From: Bacteroidia bacterium
GTDB lineage: Bacteria; Bacteroidota; Bacteroidia; UKL13-3
DNA: 34,930 nt
Assembly (NCBI GenBank): GCA_023151275.1
Contig: JAKLJI010000009.1
Location: 84,287 to 119,216 of the forward strand
Direction of reading: 5' to 3'
Notes under the pieces: model-generated
The model's input: the letters and a program-made list of their open reading frames with translations, nothing else
Databases searched by the model: none
Told to the model about the DNA's origin: nothing
In this document: one piece after another, positions 611 to 34,930 of the stretch
How the letters are laid out: every line of letters starts with the position of its first letter
Position numbering within the stretch: the stretch's first letter is position 1
Translations under genes and position numbers: made by a program

Positions 611-1342
611 TCAATTCTTAAACAACCAGATGATTCCGATATTGGCATTTCCCAAGCCAACCGCAGGTCTTAAACTTGAAGAAATATCATAGCGAATAGA
701 ACGGTTAATTACTTCTTTACCGTTTTCCGAATTTGAATATTGTCCATAAGATAGGCCAACATGAATCATCCGGAATCCAAGTGTACAAAGTAAAAGCTCA
801 GAGGCACGAACCTGCAATCCGGCAAAAAAAGAACCGGTTACTTGCACATTAAATCGATCTGGATTATTGTACTTAAATTCAGAATTATTAATTAGAGAAT
901 AATTATAACTTGAATTTAAACCAAATCCGGCACTGGTGTATAGCCTGTAGAAATATCCAATTTTCTTATAAAGCGGCTTATACCAAGAGGTGGCATTATA
1001 CAAATGAAAGGAATGACTCGAATAACGGGTATTGGATTCGGCTTGAACGTTTTGATTTAGGGAATCAAAATCTTGATTCAAATAATCGGATTTAGAAAGA
1101 ATATAGGATAAGCCAAAAGACCTTGCTTTGGTAGGACTAAGAAATTTACCTACCCCAAAATTAACAAAACCATTTACATTCAGATTTTTAGAAAAAGTTC
1201 CAAAAGTTTGAGTTACCGGAGACTCGGCCAACGACCTTTGGTAATTGAGGTAGCCATTGCTTTCTATGAATCGGTAAGCATCCAAGCTTTGTGCTAAAAC
1301 AGAAAATGGCATGAGTATGAATAAGAAAAACAACTTTTTCAT
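611..1342 (-). CDS. secreted beta-rich protein, probable small outer-membrane barrel
   Basis: A 243-residue protein of unknown function. It starts with a clear signal peptide (Lys-Lys, hydrophobic core, VLAQ cleavage site). The rest is rich in aromatic and polar residues in alternating patterns, with repeated Gly-Phe/Tyr pairs (VNFGVGKFL, FGLSYILS, LGFRMIHVGLSYGQ), and it ends in a short hydrophobic strand finishing in Phe-Lys-Asn. That composition suits a small outer-membrane beta-barrel. Its ATG overlaps the stop of the upstream gene by four bases (ATGA), so the two are probably translated together. No catalytic motif is visible; the barrel call is inference. Confidence 0.7.
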   Translation of the reverse strand: MKKLFFLFILMPFSVLAQSLDAYRFIESNGYLNYQRSLAESPVTQTFGTFSKNLNVNGFVNFGVGKFLSPTKARSFGLSYILSKSDYLNQDFDSLNQNVQAESNTRYSSHSFHLYNATSWYKPLYKKIGYFYRLYTSAGFGLNSSYNYSLINNSEFKYNNPDRFNVQVTGSFFAGLQVRASELLLCTLGFRMIHVGLSYGQYSNSENGKEVINRSIRYDISSSLRPAVGLGNANIGIIWLFKN

Positions 1343-1989
1343 TTTCTGATTAGGTAAAAGGCTGATAATACAAATGCTCCAGGCTGAATATTACCGGGTG
1401 AGTAAATAACAAAACTGGTATTTTGTTCATGTTGGGAATTGCCAAAACCGGCACTTTCCTCCAAAGAACCGGTCCATGCATGGCGGAAAGCTATTAGGTT
1501 GTACTTTAATTCAAACCCAATTTTTGGAACCGGCATCCACCAAATGCCCATTCCTGCATAGGAAGAAAGCTCGTGCTCACTTATTCTGCTGCTAAATCCG
1601 GAAAAATCGATTTGGGTTACCCGGTACAAATAGCCCGGCCTGATATCGAAACTGTAACCAAATCCTTTACCTAAATCAAAATAACGCCCCAAAGGCATAT
1701 TAAAACCAATGGAATTTGCACTAGACTTAGAACTGGAAGAACTTTCATTCAATGAGCCCGCATAACTTAAATTCAGTCCCATAAGAGTTCCCTTTTTAAA
1801 CAAGCTTGAACCAACAGAAAATTCAAAGGTTTGTTGTGAAATTTGGGAAGTTGCCGTTTCTCCCTTAAAATTTCGAATAAGGGTTGAGTTTTGAGTTCCC
1901 AATGAAAAATTAAGGGAAACTCCATTTGGGATCTGGGCAAAAGTGGTATTTACCAGGCCAAGGACAATAAGCAGGATAAAAAAGCGCAT
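1339..1989 (-). CDS. secreted beta-rich protein, probable outer-membrane barrel
   Basis: A 216-residue protein when started at the ATG at 1989. This start is preferred because a good signal peptide follows at once (MRFFILLIVLGLVNTTFAQ), whereas the longer reading from 2061 adds 24 residues without signal character. The mature part is Ser/Gly/Tyr-rich with alternating strands (LNFSLGTQNST, GFGYSFDIRPGYLYRV, GFELKYNLIAFRHAW) and ends in GAFVLSAFYLIRK, like an outer-membrane barrel terminus. It overlaps the next minus-strand gene by ATGA and resembles it in architecture (similar length, signal peptide, barrel-like strands), so they form a two-gene unit. The function is not recognised. Confidence 0.7.
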   Translation of the reverse strand: MRFFILLIVLGLVNTTFAQIPNGVSLNFSLGTQNSTLIRNFKGETATSQISQQTFEFSVGSSLFKKGTLMGLNLSYAGSLNESSSSSKSSANSIGFNMPLGRYFDLGKGFGYSFDIRPGYLYRVTQIDFSGFSSRISEHELSSYAGMGIWWMPVPKIGFELKYNLIAFRHAWTGSLEESAGFGNSQHEQNTSFVIYSPGNIQPGAFVLSAFYLIRK

Positions 1990-2048
1990 ATAGGCAATAT
2001 AAGAAAATGAGCTAAATTTGAAACCACAAACTGACCATAATCGGTTTA

Positions 2049-2079
2049 TTGCTTGATACAAGTCATTTTTTTAGGTTTG
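2049..2079 (+). promoter_or_regulatory. Bacteroidetes-type promoter for the oxygenase gene
   Basis: TTG at 2049-2051, a 20-base spacer, then TAGGTTTG at 2072-2079, a full match to the Bacteroidetes -7 consensus TAnnTTTG. It lies 34 bases before the ATG at 2114 and supports that start over the upstream TTG at 2093. Confidence 0.55.
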
Positions 2080-2113
2080 AATCCAAAGCAATTTGCCACC
2101 AAACATTGAACCC

Positions 2114-2884
2114 ATGATACGTTTTGATTACCTGGAAGCCAACAAAGAAAAATTTCGCGAACAGTTTCTAACTGCAAAACCATTTCCGCATATCGGAATT
2201 GATGGAATTTGTGATGAAGCAAAATTGATAGAACTGTACAGAAACATTCCCAACATTGAAACGCCTTCTGCTGATTACGTTTTTGCTAAGGAGAAATACG
2301 AAAAGAGTAAGTTTTGGGAACTCGGTGGAGTATTCAAGGAATTGTACGATGATCTAACCAATCCAAAATTTGGTGAATTGATTTCTTACATTACCAATGA
2401 AGAAATTTTCATCGACCAAACCTTCTACGGCGGGGGAATTCACCAAGGTAGAAAAGGAAGTTTTCTGGATATGCATGCCGACTTTAACTACCATCCCTTG
2501 CACGAAGATTGGTACCGCAACCTGAATTTGTTGCTCTACATGAACAAAGAATGGAAAAAGGAATATGGTGGTGAACTTCGCCTGGAAGATGGTAGAACAG
2601 GAGAAAAAACTGAAGTTGACGTTCCATTCAACCGATTAGCCATTATGCATTGCAGAAGCTACACCCTGCATGGATACGACCCCATTAATTTTCCGGAAGG
2701 AACCTACAGAACAAGTATTGCAGCTTATGCTTACACCCTGCATAACCAGCACATGGAAGCACCCAGAACAACAGTTTGGCATGTTCAAAAAGACAATCCG
2801 CTAAAATATGCCTTATCAAAAATTTGGGTTCCTGCGGTGAAAATCAAGAGTTTATTCTCAAAATCAAAAACTGCTGATCATTAA
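2114..2884 (+). CDS. 2OG-Fe(II) oxygenase family protein
   Basis: A 256-residue protein when started at the ATG at 2114; the reading from TTG 2093 would put the start only 14 bases after the promoter -7 box. It carries the iron-binding facial triad of the 2-oxoglutarate dioxygenase (prolyl-4-hydroxylase-like) fold: His-x-Asp in DMHADFNYHP, a distal His in YTLHGYDP, and the Arg for 2-oxoglutarate in TYRTSIAAYAY. The core strand NLLLYMNKEWKKEYGGELRL is the usual family signature. Such enzymes hydroxylate proteins or small molecules in the cytoplasm. No neighbour indicates the substrate. It is a single-gene unit between a divergent pair and a tRNA. Confidence 0.85.
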   Translation: MIRFDYLEANKEKFREQFLTAKPFPHIGIDGICDEAKLIELYRNIPNIETPSADYVFAKEKYEKSKFWELGGVFKELYDDLTNPKFGELISYITNEEIFIDQTFYGGGIHQGRKGSFLDMHADFNYHPLHEDWYRNLNLLLYMNKEWKKEYGGELRLEDGRTGEKTEVDVPFNRLAIMHCRSYTLHGYDPINFPEGTYRTSIAAYAYTLHNQHMEAPRTTVWHVQKDNPLKYALSKIWVPAVKIKSLFSKSKTADH

Positions 2885-2885
2885 A

Positions 2886-2916
2886 TTTGGATTTCCCAAG
2901 ATTAAATCTATTTTTG
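2886..2916 (+). promoter_or_regulatory. promoter of tRNA-Leu
   Basis: TTTG at 2886-2889, a 19-base spacer and TATTTTTG at 2909-2916, matching the Bacteroidetes consensus (TTTG, about 19-20 bases, TAnnTTTG). The tRNA begins 28 bases downstream. Confidence 0.65.
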
Positions 2917-2943
2917 CAGTCCCGTTTCCAACACGGAAACCAT

Positions 2944-3028
2944 GCCCGGATGGCGGAATTGGTAGACGCGCTGGTCTCAAACACCAGTGAGCTCAACCCT
3001 CGTGCCGGTTCGACCCCGGCTCCGGGTA
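2944..3028 (+). tRNA. tRNA-Leu (anticodon CAA)
   Basis: An 85-nt class II tRNA. The acceptor arms GCCCGGA and TCCGGGT pair with one G-U at the end and are followed by discriminator A. The D-arm holds the GG of GGTAGAC. The anticodon stem CTGGT/ACCAG encloses loop CTCAAAC, giving CAA (reads UUG, Leu). A long variable arm follows, then the T-arm CCGG-TTCGACC-CCGG. CCA is not encoded. It has its own promoter upstream and terminator directly downstream. Confidence 0.96.
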
Positions 3029-3030
3029 CA

Positions 3031-3061
3031 AAAAGTCAGCAGCAATGCTGACTTTTTTTTT
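3031..3061 (+). terminator. rho-independent terminator after tRNA-Leu
   Basis: Perfect stem AAAAGTCAGCA / TGCTGACTTTT with loop GCAA, followed by a run of T up to 3061. It begins three bases after the tRNA. Confidence 0.9.
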
Positions 3062-3069
3062 GCCCCTAA

Positions 3070-3385
3070 ATTTAGCTATGGCCATGGCTATTGGCGATGG
3101 CTAGGAATTTGTGAACGATTTGGAGCGATTTTACTATGGCGATGGCTTTTAGGTATAGCTGGTAATTCCGTTAAGGATTTGAAGAAGTTTACTAAGAGCC
3201 GCTGCTTCTCGGATTACAATCCGTTTTGATAAAACCCCACCATAGCCTCAGACTCCCGCTTGGATATCCATTTCCATAAATCCAAGCCATAGCTATAGCT
3301 AATAGCCATAGCCGCGACTTCTCCAAATAATATCCATTTCCATAAAACCCCGCCATAGCTATAGCCAATAGCCATAGCCAATTTT
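3070..3385. repeat. GCTATGGC-rich repeat patch with a 50-bp direct repeat
   Basis: The gap between the tRNA terminator and the fasciclin gene holds no credible gene. Two 50-bp direct repeats lie at 3264-3313 and 3330-3379; they differ at only 4 positions and are separated by 16 bases. Each is made of smaller words (CCATAGCTATAGC, AATAGCCATAGCC). Before them, at about 3074-3105 and 3132-3162, lie degenerate copies in the opposite orientation (GCTATGGCCATGGC, CTATGGCGATGGC). RNA from either strand could fold into long hairpins. Open frames here (3192-3434) merely translate the repeat and are not taken as genes. Confidence 0.75.
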
Positions 3386-3540
3386 GCATAACAGGATAGC
3401 TTTCCCATTGTTCATCCGCAAAAAATTTTGACACAATTTCAGCTTACACTGTAAGAAATTTGTCACGACAAGAGTTTTTCATGAACCATTCAGGCAACTC
3501 ATGCCTTTGCACTAAGTCTATCAATCAAATTTTAAAACAC

Positions 3541-4473
3541 ATGAAAAAACAACTGTTCAAAGCCATGATTCTTGTGGCGGGTTTTAGCGCCATTTTCTCA
3601 ACCTCATGCAAAAAAGATGAGGAAACATCAACCCCTTCAACTCCAACTGCAAAAAGCATCTACCAGATTGCCAAAGATGATGCTCGCTTCAGCACACTTG
3701 CAGCCGCAATTGAAAAAGCTGGCCTTCAAACTACATTGAGCGGCACCGGAACATTTACCGTATTTGCTCCAACTAATGATGCCTTCTCCAAATTAGGACT
3801 TACAGCTGCTGCCATCAATGCGATAACAGACCCAGCTGATATCGAAGAACTGAAAAATGTGGTTCTGTACCATGCCTTAGGAACAAAGGTGCTATCCACC
3901 CAACTCAGCAATGGTTATGTACCTTCACTCTTCACAGTAAGTGGAAATGGTGTTTCCATTCAAATTGGAACCAACCCCGTAAAAATTAACAACAGCATCA
4001 ATGTAAGTACAGCAGATGTTTCTGCCAGCAATGGCGTGATTCACATTGTAGATAATGTACTTATTCCACCAACCATTACCGATATCGCAATAAACAATCC
4101 AAACTTTAGCACCTTGGTTGGAGCCCTGGTAAAAGCCGAATTGGATGGTACTTTTGAAGGCGAAGGCACGTTTACTGTATTCGCTCCAATTAACCAGGCA
4201 TTTACCGACATTTCATTCGATTTGAATGCCACAGATAAAGCGGCATTAACACCAATCCTTACTGCACATGCATTAAGCACACAGGTAAGATCAAATCAAA
4301 TTCCAAATGGAACACCAGTAAAAACACTGAATGAAGCAGTTTCACTCACATTCAATACCTCAATGGGCGTAAAATTTAGCGGTGGCAAAACAACTGATAT
4401 CTCAGTTCAAACAGCCGATATTCAGGCAACAAATGGAGTAGTTCACGTGATTAACAAAGTAATTCTTCCGTAA
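3541..4473 (+). CDS. fasciclin (FAS1) domain lipoprotein, two domains
   Basis: A 310-residue secreted lipoprotein when started at the ATG at 3541, which directly precedes a signal sequence ending in a lipobox-like FSTSC (Cys at residue 21). A Lys/Asp/Glu-rich and then Thr/Ser/Pro-rich linker follows. Two FAS1 domains come next, residues roughly 38-175 and 176-310. Each has the H1 motif (GTFTVFAPTNDAFSKL; GTFTVFAPINQAF), a YHAL/AHAL segment and an H2 motif (NGVIHIVDNVLIPP; NGVVHVINKVILP). FAS1 proteins act in adhesion or matrix binding at the cell surface. The longer reading from 3460 adds residues without signal character. Confidence 0.93.
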   Translation: MKKQLFKAMILVAGFSAIFSTSCKKDEETSTPSTPTAKSIYQIAKDDARFSTLAAAIEKAGLQTTLSGTGTFTVFAPTNDAFSKLGLTAAAINAITDPADIEELKNVVLYHALGTKVLSTQLSNGYVPSLFTVSGNGVSIQIGTNPVKINNSINVSTADVSASNGVIHIVDNVLIPPTITDIAINNPNFSTLVGALVKAELDGTFEGEGTFTVFAPINQAFTDISFDLNATDKAALTPILTAHALSTQVRSNQIPNGTPVKTLNEAVSLTFNTSMGVKFSGGKTTDISVQTADIQATNGVVHVINKVILP

Positions 4474-4501
4474 GACCTGAATTTCCTTGTTTCCAATGAT
4501 T

Positions 4502-4536
4502 GAGGTCTGCTTATTTAGCAGGCCTCTTTCATTTTT
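4502..4536 (+). terminator. terminator of the fasciclin gene
   Basis: Stem GAGGTCTGC (4502-4510) / GCAGGCCTC (4518-4526), loop TTATTTA, one G-T pair, followed by TTTCATTTTTT. It sits between convergent genes and its T-rich side fits the plus-strand gene. Confidence 0.8.
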
Positions 4537-5245
4537 TGACAGCTTCTATACTATCCAACCACTGGTTAAAGTGTTGAATTTCCAAAGCTGTTATCGTATG
4601 ACCTGCATTGAATTCATAGTAATTAACCAGTGCACCATGCTCCTGCAACCAACGTTTTGCATCTTTTGCATAATCAATTGGCAGAACATTATCCTGATTT
4701 CCGTGGGCAATAAAAATAGGAAATTTCTGAAGGGCTTTGCTTGTAACACCAACACGAATTTCTTCCTGTAATCGCCCACTAAAAATGCCGATACCACGAA
4801 ACATTTCAGGCTTTTGAATGCCGCAATTGTAACTCAATATACCTCCCTGACTAAAACCCGCAAGTACAACATGATTGCCTTTTAACTTATAAACTTCGCG
4901 CAATTCTTCAATCAGCTTAAACAGTAGGTTACGACTTCGTTGCTCTTGTTGAATATTGAATACCGGTTTTCCTGTTGAAAAATCAACTTCATACCAGGCA
5001 TATTGTTCATCTCCCAATTGAATGGGAGCACGCGCAGAAACTACAATAAAAGCTTCGGGCAATTGGTTCGACAAGGTAAACAAATCCTGCTCATTGCTTC
5101 TCAATCCATGCAGGAGAATAACCACGGGTGTTTGTGCATGAATTAGCTTGGGCTCCTTTACCAAACAGGTTAAGGTTTTAATCTCTTTTCTATCCGATTG
5201 TCCAAGCATGTTAATCAGCATAAGAATCCAAAATGTATTAAGCAT
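4529..5245 (-). CDS. alpha/beta hydrolase, phospholipase/carboxylesterase (Abhydrolase_2) type
   Basis: A 238-residue serine hydrolase. It shows the oxyanion-hole segment LLHGLRSNEQDL, the nucleophile elbow GFSQGG, an acid Asp in AHGNQDNVLP and the catalytic His in NAGHTI, in the order and spacing of the small carboxylesterase/lysophospholipase family (YpfH and acyl-protein-thioesterase relatives). About 15 N-terminal residues are hydrophobic and could be a short signal or an over-long start. The ATG overlaps the stop of the upstream dioxygenase gene by 8 bases, so the two are co-transcribed. The ester substrate is unknown; linkage to a ring-cleaving dioxygenase hints at aromatic or quinone-type metabolites, which is inference. 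Confidence 0.88.
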   Translation of the reverse strand: MLNTFWILMLINMLGQSDRKEIKTLTCLVKEPKLIHAQTPVVILLHGLRSNEQDLFTLSNQLPEAFIVVSARAPIQLGDEQYAWYEVDFSTGKPVFNIQQEQRSRNLLFKLIEELREVYKLKGNHVVLAGFSQGGILSYNCGIQKPEMFRGIGIFSGRLQEEIRVGVTSKALQKFPIFIAHGNQDNVLPIDYAKDAKRWLQEHGALVNYYEFNAGHTITALEIQHFNQWLDSIEAVKK

Positions 5246-6125
5246 GGAGTGAAACGGAAGTCATAGTAAGCGAACCTGCAACAGCTTTATCGTTGAACAA
5301 GGCCACTTTATCTGCCTTATCCTTCAAACCCAATACATACATCAAGGGAAAATAATGTTCGGGAGTTGGAATGGCCAACTGAAAAGGTCTACCTTGTTTA
5401 GCATACGAAATCAGTTCTTCGTGATTGCCCTCAAGAATCCATTTTCGCATTTTGGATGAGGCTTCCAATGTCCAATCAAATGCATAATTATCGGTGTTCA
5501 TATGTTCCCAACTAATCATACGAAGGTTGTGAACCATATTGCCACTGCCGATAATCAAAACACCTTTATTGCGAAGCGAAGACAATTCTTTGGCCAATGC
5601 ATAATGGTACCTTGCATCTTTGGTATAATCAATGCTCATTTGAATCATTGGCACATCAGCTTTAGGATACAGGTGCTTAACAACCGACCAGGCGCCATGG
5701 TCAAATCCCCATTGCTGATCAATCCCAACCGATGTAGATTTGACTATTTCCTGGGTCATTTTGGCAAGTTCAGGACTTCCACTTGCAGGATATTGAACTT
5801 CAAACAAAGCTTTTGGAAATCCGCCGAAATCATGAATAGTTGGAGGACTCTGCAAACCGGTAACGTAAGTACCTCGCGTTTCCCAATGTGCACTTATGCA
5901 CAAGATAGCCTGTGGCTTAGGAATTTGCTTTGCTACATTTCTAAATCCGGTTACAAATTCATTTTCTTCAATGGCATTCATCGGACTGCCATGGCCCAAA
6001 AATAATACAGGCATGCGCTGGCTTGGTCCAAATGCCTTACCCATATTTTCCAATTCTTTTAATGTCATAGCACTTGTTGTTAGTGGCAATAAAGCCATGG
6101 ATTTAATAAATTGTTTTCGGTCCAT
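5238..6125 (-). CDS. ygiD: extradiol ring-cleavage dioxygenase, 4,5-DOPA dioxygenase type
   Basis: A 295-residue member of the LigB/DODA family. Putative metal ligands appear in FLGHGSP (His45), CISAHWE (His80), WGFDHGAW, and the C-terminal motif PTPEHYFPL that is diagnostic for YgiD/DODA. The family opens catechol rings (4,5-DOPA in plants and E. coli) with a non-haem metal. Compared with E. coli YgiD it has an N-terminal extension of about 35 residues resembling a signal peptide (RKQFIKSMALLPLTTSA), so it may be exported; the twin-arginine motif is not met (one Arg, one Lys). An AraC-type regulator lies upstream on the same strand and the hydrolase overlaps downstream, suggesting a three-gene inducible unit. 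Confidence 0.9.
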   Translation of the reverse strand: MDRKQFIKSMALLPLTTSAMTLKELENMGKAFGPSQRMPVLFLGHGSPMNAIEENEFVTGFRNVAKQIPKPQAILCISAHWETRGTYVTGLQSPPTIHDFGGFPKALFEVQYPASGSPELAKMTQEIVKSTSVGIDQQWGFDHGAWSVVKHLYPKADVPMIQMSIDYTKDARYHYALAKELSSLRNKGVLIIGSGNMVHNLRMISWEHMNTDNYAFDWTLEASSKMRKWILEGNHEELISYAKQGRPFQLAIPTPEHYFPLMYVLGLKDKADKVALFNDKAVAGSLTMTSVSLHA

Positions 6126-6206
6126 AGATGAAGGTCTTTTGGATAGGTCAAAGTTCCGACTTTAAGCTTGAGCTCAATCATACAAAACGGAAAAAAAACT
6201 GGAATT

Positions 6207-7040
6207 TCAGGAAAGCTGCTTACGCATTTCTTTTCTATACTCCAATGGCTTCTGCCCTTTCTTGCGTTTAAAAACTTTTGAAAAATAAGCGGGTTCAGAA
6301 TACCCAAGCTCACAAGCAATTTCGGCAATGCTTAATTCCGTGTTCAACAACAAATTGTCCGCCTCCATCAACTTACGATTCTCAATTAACTCACCCGCAC
6401 TTTGTTGCATCAATTGCCTGCAGATAATATTCAGGTTGCGGCTACTCATAAACAATTGTGAGGCATAATCTTCAACCCCTAAAGGCCTTTTATACCCCTC
6501 TTCAAGCAGGCGTAAAAACTGACCAAAACTTTGATTGTGACCGGTCAATTCAGTTTTCAATTCAGGGTAAACCAATTTGCGCTCACGTTCAATAAAATCA
6601 AAAATCGTTTGTAACAAACTCCTGCAAATGGCTAAATCCACTTGCTCAGCGCTAAGTTCCTCTGCTAAGACTTCAACAAGGACTTTTAATTTTCCAACCT
6701 TAGCTTGGCTTTTCCAAACCAGGTTCGCATAGCCATGGTAGGAAGTATAAAGCCTGAACAAGGACTCTGACAGGAGCTCTGATTTGAATCTGATTACATA
6801 CAACAAACAATCTTCCGACCCTAGAAGCGGCTCAATCCGATGTATTTTTTTCTTACTCACAAACACCACAAATGGTGCTTGCAACTGCTGAATTTCTGAA
6901 TCAATAAAATGGTTGATACTCCCTGAAAAACCCAAAATAAGTTCTTCATAATCCGAATGCCAATGCGGCGGATTAGCAGAACTTCGAATACGCTCAGCGT
7001 CTTCTTGGTTTACTCGGAATAGGTTTATCATTTGGTCCAT
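6207..7040 (-). CDS. AraC-family transcriptional regulator
   Basis: A 277-residue regulator with an N-terminal cupin-like sensor (PPHWHSDYEELILGFSGS, roughly residues 20-95), a helical linker and a C-terminal double helix-turn-helix (about residues 175-277). The second HTH carries the AraC signature IAEIACELGYSEPAYFSKVFKRKKGQKPLEYRK. Two adjacent ATG codons (7040 and 7031) could start it. It lies 81 bases upstream of the dioxygenase gene in the same orientation and probably controls it and the hydrolase; the ligand is unknown. A hairpin terminator at 7047-7073 insulates it from the truncated gene upstream. Confidence 0.92.
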   Translation of the reverse strand: MDQMINLFRVNQEDAERIRSSANPPHWHSDYEELILGFSGSINHFIDSEIQQLQAPFVVFVSKKKIHRIEPLLGSEDCLLYVIRFKSELLSESLFRLYTSYHGYANLVWKSQAKVGKLKVLVEVLAEELSAEQVDLAICRSLLQTIFDFIERERKLVYPELKTELTGHNQSFGQFLRLLEEGYKRPLGVEDYASQLFMSSRNLNIICRQLMQQSAGELIENRKLMEADNLLLNTELSIAEIACELGYSEPAYFSKVFKRKKGQKPLEYRKEMRKQLS

Positions 7041-32980: not shown

Positions 32981-33433
32981 ATGGACTGTTTCCTATTCCG
33001 GGTTGTACAAAAAGAAATATTTATACATTCGGGTAAAGGGAAAAAAGACAGAATCACTATCTTAGCAGATAGGATGACTACCCAGTTTAAAACCTATTTA
33101 AAGGAATATAAGCCTAAGTATTGGCCTATTGAAGGAGTTGAAGGTGGAACCTATGCTGCAAGAAACGTACAGGCCATACTTCGGAAAGCGATAAAAGACA
33201 CAGGAATAAACCCCTTGGCAACGACTCATACCTTAAGACCTAGTTTCGCCACCCAGCTCCTGAAAAAAGGCACAGCTATCCGGTACATACAAGAGTTGCT
33301 AGGACATAGCTCCATTAAAACTACCGAAATATGCACCCCTATCACCCACAAAGGAGGCAAGAAGATCCAAAGCCCATTGGATCAAATGGATTGCGCATCT
33401 AGGCAAATAGACGCAACTGAGTTGCGCAAATAA
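32981..33433 (+). pseudogene. tyrosine recombinase (XerC/integrase-like), C-terminal remnant with catalytic Tyr lost
   Basis: About 150 codons that match only the catalytic half of a Bacteroidetes tyrosine recombinase: IHSGKGKKDRITILADR, WPIEGVEGGTYAARNVQAILRKAIKDTGI, the His-x-x-Arg box HTLRPSFATQLLKKGT, then RYIQELLGHSSIKTTE. The first catalytic Arg and the whole core-binding N-terminal domain are missing. The nucleophile position, normally EIYTH, reads EICTP (Cys118, codon at 33332), so strand cleavage should be impossible. The usual His after the HxxR Arg is Pro as well. The frame is otherwise open to a typical tail (IQSPLDQMD), so decay by point mutation looks recent. It stands just before a cassette-like gene. 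Confidence 0.85.
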
Positions 33434-33437
33434 ATAA

Positions 33438-33452
33438 GTTAGCGGTCAGGCT
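33438..33452 (+). repeat. left cassette boundary motif (inverted partner at 34229-34243)
   Basis: GTTAGCGGTCAGGCT. Its TTAGCGGT...GGCT recurs on the opposite strand at 34229-34243 (TTAGCGGTTCGGGCT). It lies five bases after the recombinase stop. The GTT-start recalls the R' core of integron attC sites, but the rest of that consensus (GTTRRRY) is not met. Confidence 0.5.
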
Positions 33453-33471
33453 ATGACGACCACCAAACAAA

Positions 33472-34209
33472 ATGACACGGACAAAAAAAATCATAATCGC
33501 AGGACTAACATTAACGACAATAACAATATTGACAATGGGACTATTTAGTTTTTTCAAAAAATCATCTGAACAAGTAAACACTTCAACTAACCCGTATAAA
33601 GACACTGCGACAAATCAAATCTACAATTTGTTGTTCTGCGACAAACTTGATTTGTATAAAGCAAATTCAAAAGAGCCAAATCCTTATCCGTGGGACATTT
33701 TATTCTCTGAATCAAGCTCAGGAACAGACTTGCAAAAGGTAATTGATGACAGCACTTCTGAATCAAGAATGAAAGTTTTGGCATATAACAGACAACTCGC
33801 AATTGGACATAAACCAAGCAAGAAAGAACTACTTGCTGTAATTGTAGAAGTTGGACTTGATAATGGACTTGATGTTTTGGCTTCATTTAGTGATGGAACT
33901 GCACGTTACATTAATCAGACAGAAAAAATAATAATTTGGGAAACGACAGACGAGAAGTCAAATGAACTAACCAAAGATTTATTTTTAAAAAGTCAAAACA
34001 TCGTTAATCAAATTGGTGCTTGGGATAAACCAAGACGTCCTGCACCAACAAAAGGAAATGTGAGAATTACATTTCTAGCATCAGACGGACTTTATTTTGG
34101 TGAAGGACCAATTGACGTTTTATTTAACGACCCATTGGCAAGTCCAGCATTGACATCAGCGACTAACTTAATGAAATATTTAACCGAAAAATCATTAGAA
34201 ACAAAATGA
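33472..34209 (+). CDS. cassette-like gene, membrane-anchored protein of unknown function
   Basis: A 245-residue protein. An N-terminal basic start and one transmembrane helix (IIIAGLTLTTITILTMGLFSFF) are followed by a Ser/Thr-rich linker and a soluble domain. Part of this domain (SKKELLAVIVEVGLDNGLDVLASFSDGTARYINQ, EKIIIWETTDEKSNELTKDLF) looks like an alpha/beta fold that might bind something at its hydrophobic strands; no family is recognised. The tail KGNVRITFLASDGLYFGEGPIDVLFND is strand-rich. The gene is flanked by inverted TTAGCGGT motifs, and a 13-bp direct repeat AAACAAAATGACA covers both its start (33465-33477) and its stop (34199-34211). It is more AT-rich than the neighbouring core genes. 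All this suggests a mobile cassette. Confidence 0.75.
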   Translation: MTRTKKIIIAGLTLTTITILTMGLFSFFKKSSEQVNTSTNPYKDTATNQIYNLLFCDKLDLYKANSKEPNPYPWDILFSESSSGTDLQKVIDDSTSESRMKVLAYNRQLAIGHKPSKKELLAVIVEVGLDNGLDVLASFSDGTARYINQTEKIIIWETTDEKSNELTKDLFLKSQNIVNQIGAWDKPRRPAPTKGNVRITFLASDGLYFGEGPIDVLFNDPLASPALTSATNLMKYLTEKSLETK

Positions 34210-34228
34210 CAACGATGGACAGAAAAGA

Positions 34229-34243
34229 AGCCCGAACCGCTAA
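34229..34243 (-). repeat. right cassette boundary motif, interrupted by the intron
   Basis: On the minus strand TTAGCGGTTCGGGCT, the inverted partner of 33438-33452. The group II intron 3' end (ACTCGAT) abuts it, so the base before TTAGCGG, expected G as in GTTAGCGG, is displaced by the intron. Confidence 0.5.
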
Positions 34244-34930
34244 TCGAGTAACGCCGGGGAATTTCACCCCAACGTTCTCACAGAACCGTGCTTGAACCTC
34301 TCTATTCACACAGCTTGCCTCGTCCTTTGACGAGGGCTCTTCAGTAATGTCTTTACCTTTTTAAGAATAACGCTTCCTAGTGAATGGATAGCAAAACCAA
34401 GTTGTTTGTTGCCAGTGTGCAAATAAGTTGGGCTTTTCCTTCCACTTTCGCCTGAGCCAAGTGATAGCAGCACCTGTAAACTTCTTGTACTTTTTCTTGC
34501 ACCACTTTACCAACCTAAAGTTAATGTGAGCATAAATCTCAAGCATGCTGCTATGCGCAAACTTCCCAAAATAGACTATCCAACCCCTTACTTTTTCATT
34601 TAGTAAGTCGGCCAATTGCTCTATCTTTTGGGTTCGCCTGTGTAGCTTTTCATACTTCAATTGCAGCATCATTCGCTTGCGTGCCTTGGGGGCTACGCTT
34701 GCCTGATACAGCAATTTCATGCCCGCATCTTTTCCCTTCACCTTTACCATTTCTTTGCTGAACCGATGACCAAGAAAATCAAAACTACTTCCATAGCTCA
34801 TGTTTCTTGTTTGACCCTTGCGGGTTTCGGTCTGAACCAATTTGCTTTTCTCAGGATGTAATTCCAGTCCGCAAGTTTCAAAGCGCTCCCCCACTATCTT
34901 CATCACAAACTTTGCTGCATCCTCACTTAC
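34243..34930 (-). mobile_element. group II intron, 3' part (runs off window)
   Basis: The minus strand shows the reverse transcriptase ORF followed by the intron 3' RNA domains. Domain V is the 34-nt hairpin at 34315-34282, opening with the AGC triad and closing with CACGGTTCT. Domain VI is a 10-bp hairpin (CCCCAACGTT 34267-34276 / AACGCCGGGG 34250-34259 in plus orientation, two G-U pairs). The terminal ACTCGAT ends at about 34243. A further hairpin CCTCGTC/GACGAGG precedes domain V. The 5' part is outside the window. Confidence 0.85.
34361..34930 (-). CDS. ltrA: group II intron reverse transcriptase/maturase, C-terminal part
   Basis: The frame is open to the window edge, so only the C-terminal 189 residues are seen: the RT palm end (GLELHPEKSKLV, SFDFLGHRF) and the thumb/maturase X domain (LADLLNEKVRGWIVYFGKF, YAHINFRLVKWCKKKYKKF, then LFAHWQ). 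The YADD catalytic motif would lie outside. The protein ends soon after LFAHWQ, with no HNH endonuclease domain, as in group IIC introns. It splices and reverse-transcribes the intron. The symbol ltrA denotes the family only. Confidence 0.9.
   Translation of the reverse strand, partial: VSEDAAKFVMKIVGERFETCGLELHPEKSKLVQTETRKGQTRNMSYGSSFDFLGHRFSKEMVKVKGKDAGMKLLYQASVAPKARKRMMLQLKYEKLHRRTQKIEQLADLLNEKVRGWIVYFGKFAHSSMLEIYAHINFRLVKWCKKKYKKFTGAAITWLRRKWKEKPNLFAHWQQTTWFCYPFTRKRYS

Follow-up and report, generated by a model that had tools for sequence, protein, structure and literature searches.

A probable decayed integron-like platform in a Bacteroidia genome and the gene cassette system of the Bacteroidota to which it very likely belongs

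The window, by which we mean the whole stretch of DNA analysed (34,930 nucleotides from a Bacteroidia bacterium), carries toward its right-hand end the remnant of a tyrosine recombinase gene, an attI-like site, one gene cassette and the 3' part of a group II intron (Table 1), and it stops where its contig stops (G000:C76, 119216 bp). Inferring from sequence alone, we consider it very likely that these are the parts of a decayed integron-like platform, with the intron lodged in the attC-like site of the cassette. A sequence-only reading had placed a single ORF between two inverted motifs, and this held: GTTAGCGGTCAGG at 33438 is the only match in the window to the 24-mer (at most 3 mismatches; none in 100 shuffles), the bases at 34236-34243 read ACCGCTAA and are the complement of the core of GTTAGCGGTCAGG (33439-33446), and one ORF lies between the motifs. 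Two details did not hold. The gap between the end of the remnant ORF (33433) and the left motif is four bases (33434-33437) and not the five claimed, and what bounds the cassette on the left is no transposon-like inverted repeat but an attI-like site together with the R' half that belongs to the cassette.

Table 1. Features of the window, and tet(X) loci in other replicons (positions of the latter refer to the locus named)
Feature	Position	Strand	Evidence
C-terminal remnant of an integron-like tyrosine recombinase, 150 aa	32981-33433	+	PF00589; TIGR02249; identity to the copy on contig C75
attI-like site (bounds by eye)	33404-33437	+	about 50 bp identical on C75
Gene cassette, 5' core GTTAGCGGT to 3' core ACCGCTAA	33438-34243	+	same 5' boundary in L002
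Cassette ORF, 245 aa, hypothetical protein (four relatives found)	33472-34209	+	
R'' half of the cassette's attC-like site	34236-34243	+	complement of 33439-33446
3' part of a group II intron (domain V/VI, C-terminal maturase)	34244-34930	-	on the bottom strand of R''
tet(X) locus, L151 (NZ_CP054002)	4688-6318		
tet(X) locus, L150 (NZ_CP072192)	1112-2426		
tet(X) locus, L127 (NZ_CP104735)	2567-4717		

The product of the cassette ORF matches no Pfam or NCBIfam family at its cut-off, and a PDB search with its AlphaFold model (pLDDT 68.8) gave no match at E <= 0.001 and nothing reliable. The same ORF found elsewhere without these boundaries and with no mobility had been named as a refutation. The relative in another genome, L002 (82% identical), keeps the 5' boundary: homology sets in precisely at GTTAGCGGTCAGGCTAT, identity being 88% in the cassette's first 40 bp but 43% across 60 bp of the left flank, which is unrelated. 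The other three of the four relatives (L003, L004 and L005; 84, 60 and 56% identical) have no site of the class in the stretches searched.

The intron was said to abut the right motif, and it does, as the match to domains V and VI (Rfam RF00029, 34318-34243 on the minus strand, 41.7 bits against a gathering threshold of 40) ends at 34243; the last C of the cassette's 3' core stands past the intron. The maturase fragment (34361-34930, minus strand) carries the GIIM domain PF08388. No endonuclease domain was seen after the maturase domain, as claimed, which would fit a class C intron, though the ORF is incomplete in the window and this can only be called possible. The 5' end of the intron and the rest of the site, which were to be sought beyond 34930, cannot be read because the contig stops there. 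Three sites have the 3' junction at one position of R'': the window intron adjoins ACCGCTAA/TCGAG, a 95%-identical copy on contig C28 (192 bp before the contig end) adjoins GCTGCCAA/TCGAG, and a different group II intron on a Chryseobacterium plasmid (L124), without a BLAST match to the window intron, adjoins CCAGGTAA/TCGAG. Only in L124 are both junctions readable, and there the exons meet as CTGT/T (by eye). In group IIC-attC introns the 3' junction lies within the bottom-strand R'' of attC, and these introns are reversed to the cassettes (PMC7923331); insertion into bottom-strand R'' at ..TGT/T in this orientation, taken as the criterion for that type, is borne out by the 3' junction in the three sites and by both junctions in L124 alone, and the proposal of an attC-type intron held as far as can be read.

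Elements resembling IS91 (by eye) also sit in attC-like sites right at R'', in L009 (contig C41 of the source genome; about 2660, 4640, 5290 and 9330), L058 (about 7333) and L069 (1-70); one element of this kind carries its own tyrosine recombinase and transposase. Site-directed insertion is a possible explanation, although these were recognized only by eye.

The recombinase remnant matches the phage integrase family (PF00589, E 5e-18) and the integron integrase model TIGR02249 (E 1.7e-29, below cut-off), and recombinase homology interrupted by frame breaks reaches back, by eye, to about 32415. The attI-like site consists of the palindrome GCAACTGAGTTGC followed by GCAAATAAATAA, with the crossover just past the next G. 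An intact counterpart lies on contig C75 of the same genome, where a 423-aa recombinase (L016:6009-7280), to which the remnant is 80% identical over its residues 283-423, has the same last 50 bp or so before the crossover as the window, ending in GCGCAAATAAATAA/GTTA; from GTTA on there is a different cassette (GTTACCAGC...GCTGGTAAC), a hairpin site and a second cassette (GTTATGGGC...GCCCATAAC). A third platform on contig C42 (recombinase L068:4629-5672) likewise has a site and a second cassette, the latter with a predicted streptomycin adenylyltransferase gene (PF04439, E 5.9e-74), while contig C41 has three sites and no array-type recombinase, only one linked to IS91. The source genome has 10 site matches in total, all at E <= 1.3e-5. 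A simpler pattern, CCGCTAAN(20-50)TTAGCGG, found nothing across this genome because a site is about 136 bp long and combines cores of two different cassettes. Another N-terminal recombinase fragment, 93% identical to the recombinase P0001, lies at a contig end (G000:C9, 3-320).

Comparisons between platforms place the crossover at G/TT. Identity between C75 and the window is 76.5% in the 400 bp before the crossover and 54.3% after it, and between genomes G008 and G007 it is 98.5% over the 400 bp up to G/TT and 54.7% beyond, against 53.5% for random sequence. In G062, a single-contig genome with three platforms, the pairs agree at 79-84% over 1,500 bp before the crossover and at 98.2, 73.6 and 75.5% over the last 110 bp, and fall to 53.7, 51.7 and 52.5% after it (random 53.5%). 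More widely, 32 of 40 recombinase hits are followed, about 50-220 bp past the matched region, by an attI-like end (usually TATAARYWA/GTTR); in most platforms read, attI starts within about 5 to 110 bp past the recombinase stop codon. The pattern behind this count also covers variants that first came to light in L016, L048 and L096 (28 hits have the plain TATA form), and L093 and L103, which by eye have the GATAAGTAAGTTA form, are scored as misses. In six of the 40 fetched stretches the contig itself breaks off within 140 bp of the end of the recombinase, in two (L091 and L098) exactly at GTTA. The motif is absent in the relatives L050, L051 and L100 and in the IS91-linked L105 and L106. The integron criterion of an attI beside the integrase gene that receives cassettes is met.

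In an integron, both end cores of a cassette derive from a single circle and are expected to be complementary, while a site within an array joins cores of two different cassettes. This pattern prevails among 53 cassettes, comprising all neighbouring sites separated by less than 2.5 kb in which GTT and AAC are intact: start and end cores agree at all six variable bases in 42, at five in nine and at none in two, one of the latter beside an IS91-like insertion and the other beside an ORF-less element. By contrast, the two cores within one site agree at a mean of 2.58 of 6 bases (n=101), no better than chance; random re-pairing gave a mean of 2.74 and never more than 3.45 in 10,000 tries. The comparison used 111 of 141 matches to the site model, the other 30 having been set aside as shadows on the opposite strand, as sites truncated at the end of a locus, or as matches that were weaker or of odd size. 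Paired motifs around unrelated ORFs, which the sequence-only reading had proposed to look for, are thus present around different ORFs in 51 of 53 cassettes (at least 5 of 6 bases), and the integron criterion of arrays of different single-gene cassettes with matching ends is met.

Since start and end cores match per cassette, and platforms agree up to G/TT and are random beyond, the loci bear the signature of an integron. We regard the complementarity of the cores as strong evidence of past movement as cassettes; together these data show the site, the platform, the crossover at G/TT, the autonomy of the cassettes and their past movement. One might instead take the motifs for fossil MITE-like repeats around genes, without cassette behaviour, and lone or broken sites (C22, the right end of L002) and the dead recombinase of the window would favour this; however, cores that match per cassette and not per site contradict it, the sharp platform breakpoints also stand against it, and we consider it all but excluded. 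Internally palindromic elements without an ORF, roughly 150-170 bp long, were also seen between a GTT crossover and the next cassette (L124 8895-9064 and 10986-11160; L151 about 4817-4990; L145 and L138 upstream of the recombinase), and might be empty or miniature cassettes.

The proposed alignment of the sites and folding of their bottom strands revealed a hairpin with strong covariation. An alignment of eighteen sites, drawn from eight genomes, is about 136 bp long, and in it RNAalifold finds 17 stem pairs, 15 of them with two-sided changes (the L stem). In the pairing and covariation counts, for which four core pairs were added to the same sequence-made alignment, 97.6% of cells pair (68.1% shuffled), with a covariation score of 0.704 (0.169 shuffled, at most 0.091 with slid partners). 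The layout is an R box, an unpaired spacer (1 versus about 5 nt), an L box and a terminal loop of about 75 nt. Folds of seven bottom strands have z-scores of -2.05 to -3.98, one site (L059, z -2.05) taking another minimum-energy structure; in the 62 of the 111 sites that were compared in this respect the length is nearly constant (134-139), and the bottom strand is the stabler one in 47 of these 62. The integron criterion of an attC that folds as a bottom-strand hairpin is met (6 of 7 folds), by computation only. GTT is present in 102 of 111 sites, with a purine at position 4 in 99 of the 102 and at position 5 in only 43. The R' cores are GTTRNNNSY-like, and therefore the integron core consensus (RYYYAAC / GTTRRRY) is not met. 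Beyond the cores, cassettes (for example in L048 and L059) share by eye a short start (about GTTRNNNGYMANNNTANNACGAC) and end (GACAGAAAAGAAG), possibly accessory binding sites.

A rival explanation is a duplex Xer/dif-like module system, in which the recombinase would use inverted sites in double-stranded form and the hairpin would merely reflect two inverted arms that it binds. In favour of this rival, duplex DNA is the substrate of Xer-type enzymes, the domain with which IntI handles folded sites is missing from the recombinase, and the L arms are inverted repeats. Against it, the arms vary yet stay paired (0.704), which a duplex site read by its sequence would not need; the sites keep a near-constant length around the long loop; and they receive an intron of a type that targets the bottom strand of folded attC. 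We therefore think the duplex reading unlikely, and prefer an integron-like system.

The recombinase itself had been called XerC-like, which is too loose. P0001 scores 216.8 bits against TIGR02249 (cut-off 265), 207.8 bits against NF040815, also below cut-off, and 174.9 bits against the XerC model (cut-off 335), and its family match begins about 145 residues in, leaving an N-terminal extension. The distance from GKGxKDR to HTLRHSFAT is 74-75 residues in all 38 array-type recombinases, 116 in IntI1 and the Kovacikia IntI, 78-82 in XerC/D, and 75 or 83 in IS91-linked recombinases; TIGR02249 matches array recombinases in two pieces, skipping about positions 181-237, and the integron criterion of an integrase with the IntI-specific additional domain (I2) is not met (38 of 38 without). 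In a tree of 51 of 58 rows (near-copies and long branches making up the seven left out), array recombinases, IntI and IS91-linked recombinases split from the XerC/D of E. coli and Bacteroidota with support of 100/100, so that the criterion for dimer resolution, a recombinase within the XerC/D clade, is not met. IntI falls inside the array set (89/81), yet the AU test does not reject one common clade of the array recombinases (p 0.15); such a clade appears in 1% of bootstrap trees with the IS91 rows and 12% without, and without these rows the order is unresolved. Long branches meet in this tree, and the placement of IntI, inside or beside the set without the additional domain, is only tentative. 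The array-type rows in the domain count and the trees include L050, L051 and L100, all without attI.

It could also be supposed that this is an ordinary integron system in which a canonical IntI elsewhere moves the cassettes and the neighbouring recombinase is a bystander. One genome, G005, does have an IntI-like gene above the IntI cut-off (C58, a straight match through 1-254), and reviews count Bacteroidota among the phyla with integrons (PMC8618304, PMC9668308). However, such a gene was found in just one of the 62 genomes sampled from the order, although arrays are common; attI lies directly behind the gene without the extra domain; recombinase and sites co-occur; and the site model (R1) has no match in a class 1 integron plasmid, in a scan that lacked a positive control. 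We hold this explanation very unlikely. The frame of the G005 gene (1439-2378 of L102) looks broken near its 3' end. Four recombinases of the same broad family (L138, L145, L149 and G259:C7) are directed away from the array, which is the arrangement of classical integrons, and could represent a second subclass.

At E <= 1e-4 the site model matches 171 of 395 sampled Bacteroidota genomes, in 98 of 171 genera; the scan applied stricter filters and scored at most 8 candidates per genome, so that site counts per genome are capped. The recombinase was found at E <= 1e-85 in 101 of the 395, of which 84 also have sites (odds ratio 11.8, p 1.7e-21), and in the highest-scoring recombinase class 36 of 37 genomes have sites, a class cut after the list had been seen. 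Conversely, 87 of the 171 site-bearing genomes have no recombinase at this threshold and 17 of the 101 recombinase genomes have no site; the strict E-value means that recombinase misses include more divergent recombinases. Among 20 arrays from other families, nine of the fetched stretches contain a recombinase and 11 none; four of the nine have the attI motif, and three point away from the array (L138, L145, L149). The plasmid of Chryseobacterium sp. SNU WT5 (NZ_CP041688) has four site matches. At E <= 1, without a positive control, nothing was found in the class 1 integron plasmid, a Kovacikia plasmid, the tet(X3) Acinetobacter plasmid or one Methanobrevibacter genome. Only 1 of 151 genomes in an archaeal phylum sample has site matches; that genome, G483, has 14, and contamination by foreign contigs, or transfer, may account for them.

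Although no recombination has been shown experimentally, we conclude that the ORF between the inverted motifs is very likely the first cassette of an integron-like gene-capture system common to many Bacteroidota, and that the window is a decayed member of it (probability about 0.87); its recombinase does without a domain that is regarded as essential in integron integrases. The further claims of the sequence-only reading, namely a recombinase oriented toward the cassette, sites related to attC that depart from GTTRRRY, and an undescribed Bacteroidetes cassette family, held within the limits of sequence evidence. In the mechanism we propose, the tyrosine recombinase would act at an attI that in most platforms read lies shortly past its own stop codon, and at the hairpin attC-like site at the 3' end of each cassette, cutting at G/TT and inserting or removing circular one-gene cassettes, such that arrays of unrelated genes would grow at attI. 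The substrate would be the folded bottom strand, its choice resting on the uneven unpaired spacer and not on contact with the IntI additional domain; the N-terminal extension may play a role, and resolution would be replicative as in integrons. In the window the recombinase gene would have broken, and an intron of the group IIC-attC type would have split the site of the first cassette.

The system may also have carried clinical resistance genes. A Bacteroides fragilis plasmid has the tigecycline-resistance gene tet(X) flanked by two sites of the class (E 6e-14 and 1.6e-12), and a Riemerella plasmid has one such site (E 1e-14) after the gene. On an Acinetobacter plasmid tet(X3) is preceded by a truncated recombinase, 50% identical to P0001, and by an attI-like end and core GTTATGTGC (by eye); the half site after the gene is weak (E 0.085) and is absent in the separate scan above. 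It is possible that tet(X) travelled as a Bacteroidota cassette, its movement being inferred only. A 'xerD' gene beside tet(X) has been noted without a cassette explanation (PMC7473080, PMC7494873, PMC11194056), and the cassette system would give a concrete answer to a question left open in the first of these studies. Complete integrons have been reported as near absent from Bacteroidetes, with In0 only at first and then one in Salinibacter ruber (PMC9024848), in contrast to the sites in 171 of 395 genomes. We found no description of recombinases without the I2 domain that accompany Bacteroidota cassette arrays in the literature searched, bioRxiv and most subscription papers being outside its scope. 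The origin of the I2 domain and of attC has been described as a chicken-and-egg paradox, each seeming useless alone (PMC4792948; Escudero et al. 2016), and widespread attC-like hairpin cassettes without I2 make that question directly testable. A bolder reading, which we can neither favour nor dismiss, is that these loci form a separate phylum-wide integron class of the Bacteroidota whose recombinase never acquired I2, from whose stock classical IntI may have come, and which has supplied clinical resistance genes such as tet(X); if so, cassette capture at folded sites preceded the domain thought to make it possible.

Compared with known systems, the loci resemble integrons (IntI/attI/attC; class 1 and Vibrio chromosomal) in platform layout, in arrays with one attC per cassette, in the G/TT crossover, in cassette-specific complementary cores, in an R/L-box hairpin with an unpaired central spacer, and in introns of the group IIC-attC type. 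Unlike integrons, the Bacteroidota recombinase lacks the additional domain of about 41 residues, its gene is in most cases oriented toward the array, attI lying on the 3' side of the gene, the core is not GTTRRRY, and site length is almost constant at about 136 bp. The R box, uneven unpaired spacer, L box and terminal loop follow the layout of classical attC, whereas extra-helical single bases are not clear and single mismatches stand instead. The introns share with group IIC-attC introns the 3' junction in R'' of the bottom strand and the orientation opposite to the cassettes, and differ in the exons of L124 (CTGT/T, by eye, versus TTGT/T) and in host sites of a new class. At the protein level the recombinases are like the 'integron-like subgroup' of simple tyrosine recombinases (PMC8138268) and the NF040815 family ('site-specific tyrosine recombinase/integron integrase'), although no cassette arrays or sites are described for insertion-less members of that subgroup in the relevant sections. 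Finally, IS91-linked tyrosine recombinases of Bacteroidota belong to the same broad clade and also lack the additional domain (75 or 83 residues), but the copy on C41 is linked to an IS91 transposase and the two checked (L105, L106) have no attI.
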